Assembly: GCA_021789095.1 (NCBI GenBank)
Contig: JAJYJX010000037.1
Span: 1 to 16,354 of the forward strand
From: a bacterium
GTDB taxonomy: Bacteria > JAMCPX01
Direction of reading: 5' to 3'
Length of the DNA: 16,354 nt
This document shows, piece by piece, positions 2,711 to 2,993 of the stretch. Both the position numbers and the translations under genes were made by a program. The notes under the pieces are model-generated. The model made no database searches. It worked only from the letters and a program-made list of their open reading frames with translations, and was not told the DNA's origin. Within the stretch, counting starts at the first letter, position 1. Every line of letters begins with the position of its first letter.

Positions 2711-2738
2711 ATAATACAACCAATTTAGTTTAACTCAA
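2711..2738 (-). promoter_or_regulatory. Probable sigma70-type promoter of rpmB
   Basis: Reading the minus strand, TTGAGT (2733–2738) is followed by a 16-nt spacer and TATTAT (2711–2716), close to the -35 and -10 consensus. Transcription would start near 2704, giving a short leader carrying GGAGG before the rpmB ATG. The -35 hexamer directly adjoins the T8 tract (2737–2744) that ends the inverted-repeat region, so termination of upstream transcription and new initiation would be packed together. Confidence 0.6.
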
Positions 2739-2766
2739 AAAAAATCAGGAGTGAGGTTTGCTTGTT
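2733..2766. repeat. Dispersed 34-nt repeat, copy 1
   Basis: These 34 bases align without gaps to 8422–8455 with 28 identities. Both copies begin ACTCAAAAAAA and end AGGTTTGCTTGTT. This copy contains the left arm of the inverted repeat, the T8 tract and the -35 hexamer of rpmB. Part of the match is low-complexity A-run, but the two matching ends are kept at the same spacing. Confidence 0.5.
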
Positions 2767-2934
2767 CGTTCAACCCTGCGATTCACCTAAGATACTTTAA
2801 CTTTTTTATATTGCTCATCTTCAAGCCCTCTGTAAGTTTATATGCAGGCTTCTTGTCTTATCATGTTTGCCGATATTCGAAGAAGACCTTTATTTGACGC
2901 AGGCTTTTCACTCATCCTCACAAACCTCACTCCT
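2747..2934. repeat. 14-bp perfect inverted repeat enclosing 160 nt (alaS–rpmB gap)
   Basis: AGGAGTGAGGTTTG at 2747–2760 is exactly the reverse complement of 2921–2934. The gap between alaS and rpmB (2689–2993, 305 nt) holds this structure and no recognised gene. In a minus-strand transcript the first arm carries a Shine–Dalgarno-like AGGAGUGAGG just ahead of a small ORF. The second arm is followed two bases later by eight U residues. It could therefore act as a long-loop terminator or switch downstream of alaS, or be a small mobile-element relic with terminal inverted repeats. The sequence alone does not decide between these. Confidence 0.6.
2783..2921 (-). pseudogene. Possible broken small gene inside the inverted repeat
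   Basis: After the arm AGGAGTGAGG, ATG 2913–2915 (or GTG 2919–2921) opens a 25-aa frame, MSEKPASNKGLLRISANMI followed by RQEACI, which stops at 2838–2840. Removing one A near 2858 would join it to an open stretch reading DKKPAYKLTEGLKMSNIKKL and a short YLR tail that stops at 2783–2785. The joined product would be 43 aa. The composition changes little across the join, which suggests a frameshift in a former or real small protein. I do not recognise the family. A second mini-ORF (MADLINPKKFV, 2937–2972) ends just upstream. It could all be chance reading frames in a non-coding leader. Confidence 0.25.
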
Positions 2935-2993
2935 TTTTAAACGAACTTTTTTGGGTTTATTAAATCTGCCATCTTCAAAATCTGTTCTACAAC

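Follow-up and report, generated by a model that had tools for sequence, protein, structure and literature searches.

What should one make of a small ORF that is enclosed by a distant inverted repeat in the gap between two housekeeping genes? In the window, that is, the whole stretch of 16,354 nucleotides that was analysed, the space between alaS and rpmB holds a perfect 14-bp inverted repeat whose arms, 2747–2760 (AGGAGTGAGGTTTG) and 2921–2934 (CAAACCTCACTCCT), lie 160 nt apart. A plus-strand run of eight A residues (U8 in the minus-strand RNA) is found at 2737–2744, two bases beyond the arm, and between the arms there is a small minus-strand ORF, 2838–2930, encoding 30 aa from a GTG start or 25 aa from an inner ATG at 2915. 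The first-pass annotation had placed the repeat, the U8 and the ORF correctly. It suggested a switch between the two genes, in which the arms would hide a ribosome binding site and create a terminator-like stem, and named a small non-autonomous element as the alternative; it proposed searching relatives, folding the RNA and looking for compensatory changes between the arms. The alternative is now strongly supported by dispersed copies, ends, target duplications and empty sites, and the feature is very likely an IS1380-type MITE, one copy of which has come to lie in the alaS–rpmB gap.

When its own genome was searched with positions 2730–2965, 47 matches were obtained. The search of relatives with the copy consensus gave matches in 9/9 phylum genomes examined (the window's own and eight others, all of one family), with up to approximately 54 per genome. 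No element match was found in 51 genomes outside the family, in phage or plasmid collections, or in a pattern scan of viral contigs; the element is also present in a MAG labelled Deltaproteobacteria bacterium FK_Sedi_A_Bin.102. Among the fetched loci, there are 128 unique copies, 89 of which have both ends. The 76 full copies carry the ends CCCGAAAAATGC and GCATTTTTCGGG, and the element has no transposase gene; searches of the translated interior against Pfam, NCBIfam and PHROGs gave nothing significant. In the window, the repeat extends outward past 2747–2934 in a bulged stem that reaches 2734 and 2955, so that the complete element measures approximately 222 bp; the copy and its target duplication are listed here in sense order:

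2956–2959, minus strand: 5' side of the degenerate target-site duplication, TAAA (one mismatch against the right flank, TTAA)
2734–2955, minus strand (taken as sense): whole MITE copy, approximately 222 bp, delimited by end mapping and by comparison with 76 aligned full copies
2940–2955, minus strand: left terminal repeat end, CCCAAAAAAGTTC..., consensus CCCGAAAAATGC
2921–2934, minus strand: 5' arm of the inner stem, sense strand AGGAGTGAGGTTTG, with a Shine–Dalgarno-like purine run
2838–2915, minus strand: 25-aa ORF, MSEKPASNKGLLRISANMIRQEACI, with a start codon column common to 53/54 aligned copies
2747–2760, minus strand: 3' arm of the inner stem, sense strand CAAACCTCACTCCT
2734–2746, minus strand: right terminal repeat end, GATTTTTTTTGAG, consensus GCATTTTTCGGG, including the U8 at 2737–2744
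2730–2733, minus strand: 3' side of the degenerate target-site duplication, TTAA (one mismatch against the left flank, TAAA)

The flanks of the copies bear the marks of transposition. The ends are bordered by 4-bp direct repeats, usually TTAA but also TCAA, TTCA, ATAA, TAAA and CTCA, and the duplication is exact at 44 of the 72 unique sites, against a mean of 19.6 and a maximum of 28 after shuffling. At non-TTAA sites taken separately, exact duplications number 14/29 (shuffled mean 2.2, maximum 8). Two precise empty sites were identified in the sister genome G008, where the joined flanks of two copies from G001 (L089 and L091) align uninterrupted with 95–96% identity.

The IS1380 assignment comes from a 1,620-bp element in another relative, G002 (L171, 1509–3128), with matching ends of 16–17 bp, CCCGAAAAATGCATTT, and TTAA on both sides. 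Its transposase matches PF13701 (E 6.9e-23) and the NCBIfam IS1380 model NF033539 (E 3.7e-49), the latter with a score of 167.5 that falls below the cut-off of 180, perhaps owing to the frameshift that breaks the frame near the N terminus. The MITE and this insertion sequence have only the terminal 12–17 bp in common; the interior and the inner stem are unrelated. A second, rearranged copy of this insertion sequence is present in G003. The window's own genome, which is 92% complete, yielded no IS1380 transposase, and movement there may therefore be past. Across the nine genomes (G000–G008), G002 has few MITE copies, and the MITE-rich genomes have no intact transposase. Since the sole full-length partner is frameshifted and resides in a copy-poor genome, the helper is inferred from the shared ends. 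These points count against the assignment, as does the imperfect duplication (TAAA/TTAA) around the copy in the window. Nevertheless, the dispersed copies, conserved terminal inverted repeats, mostly TTAA duplications, empty sites and an IS1380-family element that shares both ends and duplication favour an IS1380-type MITE as the best reading.

Many copies are themselves interrupted, at a single constant internal position, by another palindromic element (ends CCCCGTTAGAAA/TTTCTAACGGGG) that has TAAA repeats on either side (e.g., L105:1049–1368, L103:1066–1494, L033:1732–2048, L038:1732–2069 and others), and is apparently a nested MITE that has been amplified as a composite. The nested element in L103:1066–1494 and L104:1085–1510 holds a further hairpin-rich insert of approximately 110 bp, that is, three-level nesting. 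A REP-like small palindrome (GGGGTACCCATCCGGGGGATGGGTCGTG and variants) occupies mirror-image positions in the stem, in the right arm of L018, L023 and L031 and in the left arm of L029 and L135, and some copies (L028, L032:1070–1357, L036:5631–5906 and L135:845–1157) have a GTCATTGCGAG...CTCGCAATGACA repeat inserted in their central loop.

Copies adjoin many different genes and are mostly intergenic, tending to lie downstream of genes in the same direction. With neighbouring genes called by a simple longest-ORF rule, copies between co-directional genes are sense in 21 cases and antisense in 9, a weak bias (P 0.04; a smaller set had given 23 and 7), and convergent gaps with copies outnumber divergent ones by 28 to 8. 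This context fits the avoidance of promoters, perhaps also an effect on 3' ends. Approximately ten copies (upstream gene distance −3) have their first bases inside the TAA stop of the preceding gene, which a TTAA target would permit while leaving the upstream protein unchanged. A weak sigma-70-like promoter (TTGAGT-16-TATTAT; 2711–2738, minus strand) overlaps the outer end of the element ahead of rpmB; rpmB could have gained a promoter through the insertion, a match of this kind being near chance level.

The hairpin predicted for the RNA of the element is strongly conserved. Folding the minus-strand RNA gave −57.7 kcal/mol (z = −3.65), a stability equalled in 0/200 shuffles. Over 48 distinct copies, 94.8% of the cells of a 41-pair stem are paired, and the compensatory changes that the first-pass annotation had proposed looking for are present: 19/41 pairs show two-sided changes, and these occupy 136 cells, compared with 40 after shuffling and no more than 19 after sliding of the partners, though related copies are not independent and these counts overstate the number of events. 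Tree-based inference gives 34 double changes from one Watson–Crick pair to another. For the outer 12 pairs, a transposase that requires the two ends to match could explain the covariation. The insertion sequence does not have the inner 29 pairs, and another cause must be sought for them; because the compensatory stem continues beyond the shared 12–17 bp, folding of the RNA or of single strands (or else repair from arm to arm) is probably of importance to the element family.

The putative ribosome binding site within the arm is a recurrent property of the family, in that the purine run and the start codon recur across copies in the 5' part of the stem, with the start codon in a single alignment column (53/54 copies) and the purines 8–9 nt before it. 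In the ORF frame, 63/114 change events fall at third positions (permutation P 0.0037), and 44 synonymous events are seen when 28.6 would be expected, a weak coding signal that is concentrated in the first 15 codons. Constraint is absent from the later half, where most genomes show a shift of frame or a stop, and pN/pS is clearly low only in G005. It is possible that the small ORF is translated. A full interior protein of 50–60 aa was considered and rejected, its second half having no coding constraint and being broken in most copies.

How, then, should the arrangement be explained? A cis-acting switch that evolved for alaS–rpmB, with arms that hide the ribosome binding site of a leader ORF and form a terminator, would account for the pairing arms, the purine run in the 5' arm and the U8 after the 3' arm. 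The gap itself speaks otherwise: it measures 305 bp here and only 19–84 bp, without the element, in the six relatives in which both genes are readable, so the insertion is private to the window's genome in this comparison and a dedicated switch is unsupported, while dozens of other intergenic sites hold the same element. The terminator-like stem fares no better, since the U8 is the transposon end (ATTTTTCGGG in the consensus) altered by mutation, terminator prediction found none, and the loop of approximately 160 nt is unlike the short-loop, G+C-rich hairpin and immediate U run of an intrinsic terminator. Rfam covariance models gave no match above the gathering score for the element, nor anything relevant at relaxed thresholds (two weak E-value matches fall outside it or at its edge). 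We regard such a switch as highly improbable.

Two further proposals accept the MITE and concern what maintains its stem. One gives the MITE a general RNA function, domesticated or self-serving, in which a 25-aa leader ORF would be translated, its Shine–Dalgarno sequence later closed by the 3' arm, and the upstream mRNA processed or stabilised in a hairpin-dependent manner. The compensatory stem well past the shared ends, the shared start codon and the third-position and synonymous excesses argue for it, as do the preference for sense orientation and for departures from pairing to G-U over A-C on the sense strand (69 vs 44 in stems; in unpaired columns these directions give 103 vs 94). The last two signals are weak, however, and with the later half of the frame unconstrained and pN/pS clearly low in one genome only, we judge this function unlikely. 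The other proposal, which is doubtful but deserves somewhat more credence, is that template switching or conversion from one arm of a quasi-palindrome to the other, a process of mutation and not selection on folding, preserves the complementarity. Events of this kind restore pairing without function, and the inner helices are also highly paired; yet conserved mismatches and an asymmetric 8-nt bulge persist, and the weak favouring of G-U over A-C also points away from it.

For the IS1380-type MITE, the course of events would be simple. The CCCGAAAAATGC ends would have served as the recognition sequence of an IS1380-family transposase, which would have carried the element to TTAA-like, mostly intergenic sites, and such movement would have put one copy between alaS and rpmB. 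Read-through from alaS would then produce a minus-strand RNA that folds into a long hairpin. Any local effect would probably be modest at most, that of a structured spacer that may alter the processing or stability of the alaS–rpmB mRNA.

The element shares with IS1380-family insertion sequences (TTAA target) its CCC-starting ends, the TTAA-type 4-bp duplication and, in G002, a transposase of that family between identical ends; it differs in having no transposase gene and an unrelated interior. TTAA duplications and CCC ends are also found in piggyBac transposons, for which IS1380 has served as the outgroup (PMC10813416). No published MITE of the IS1380 family was found in the literature searched. 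The ERIC, Correia (NEMIS), RUP and BOX MITEs are comparable in size class (approximately 100–200 bp), mostly intergenic position, long stem-loop transcripts and, in some cases, ORFs, which known bacterial MITEs also carry (PMC2229807). They differ in sequence and ends, the target here being TTAA-like 4 bp rather than the TA of Correia, ERIC and RUP, and the host of the present element belongs to a different, uncultured phylum. ERIC and Correia affect mRNA processing (PMC2229807, PMC10969869, PMC3049150), and by analogy a general RNA-level effect is plausible here. SPRITE repeats of Streptococcus pneumoniae likewise have a long duplex adjoining a U-rich tract and are enriched near gene 3' ends (PMC3049150), whereas here the U run is short and within the stem end, and the loop is approximately 160 nt.

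A bolder view, which we consider improbable, is that a phylum-wide MITE with its own conserved Shine–Dalgarno sequence, start codon and tiny ORF in a covarying hairpin would work in 3' untranslated regions as an RNA module that is portable and responds to translation. What looked like a riboswitch between two housekeeping genes is explained by a mobile element, one of an apparently unreported MITE family that has spread through one small bacterial phylum, and its strong covariation past the transposon ends makes the family a good test case for RNA-folding selection on MITEs.
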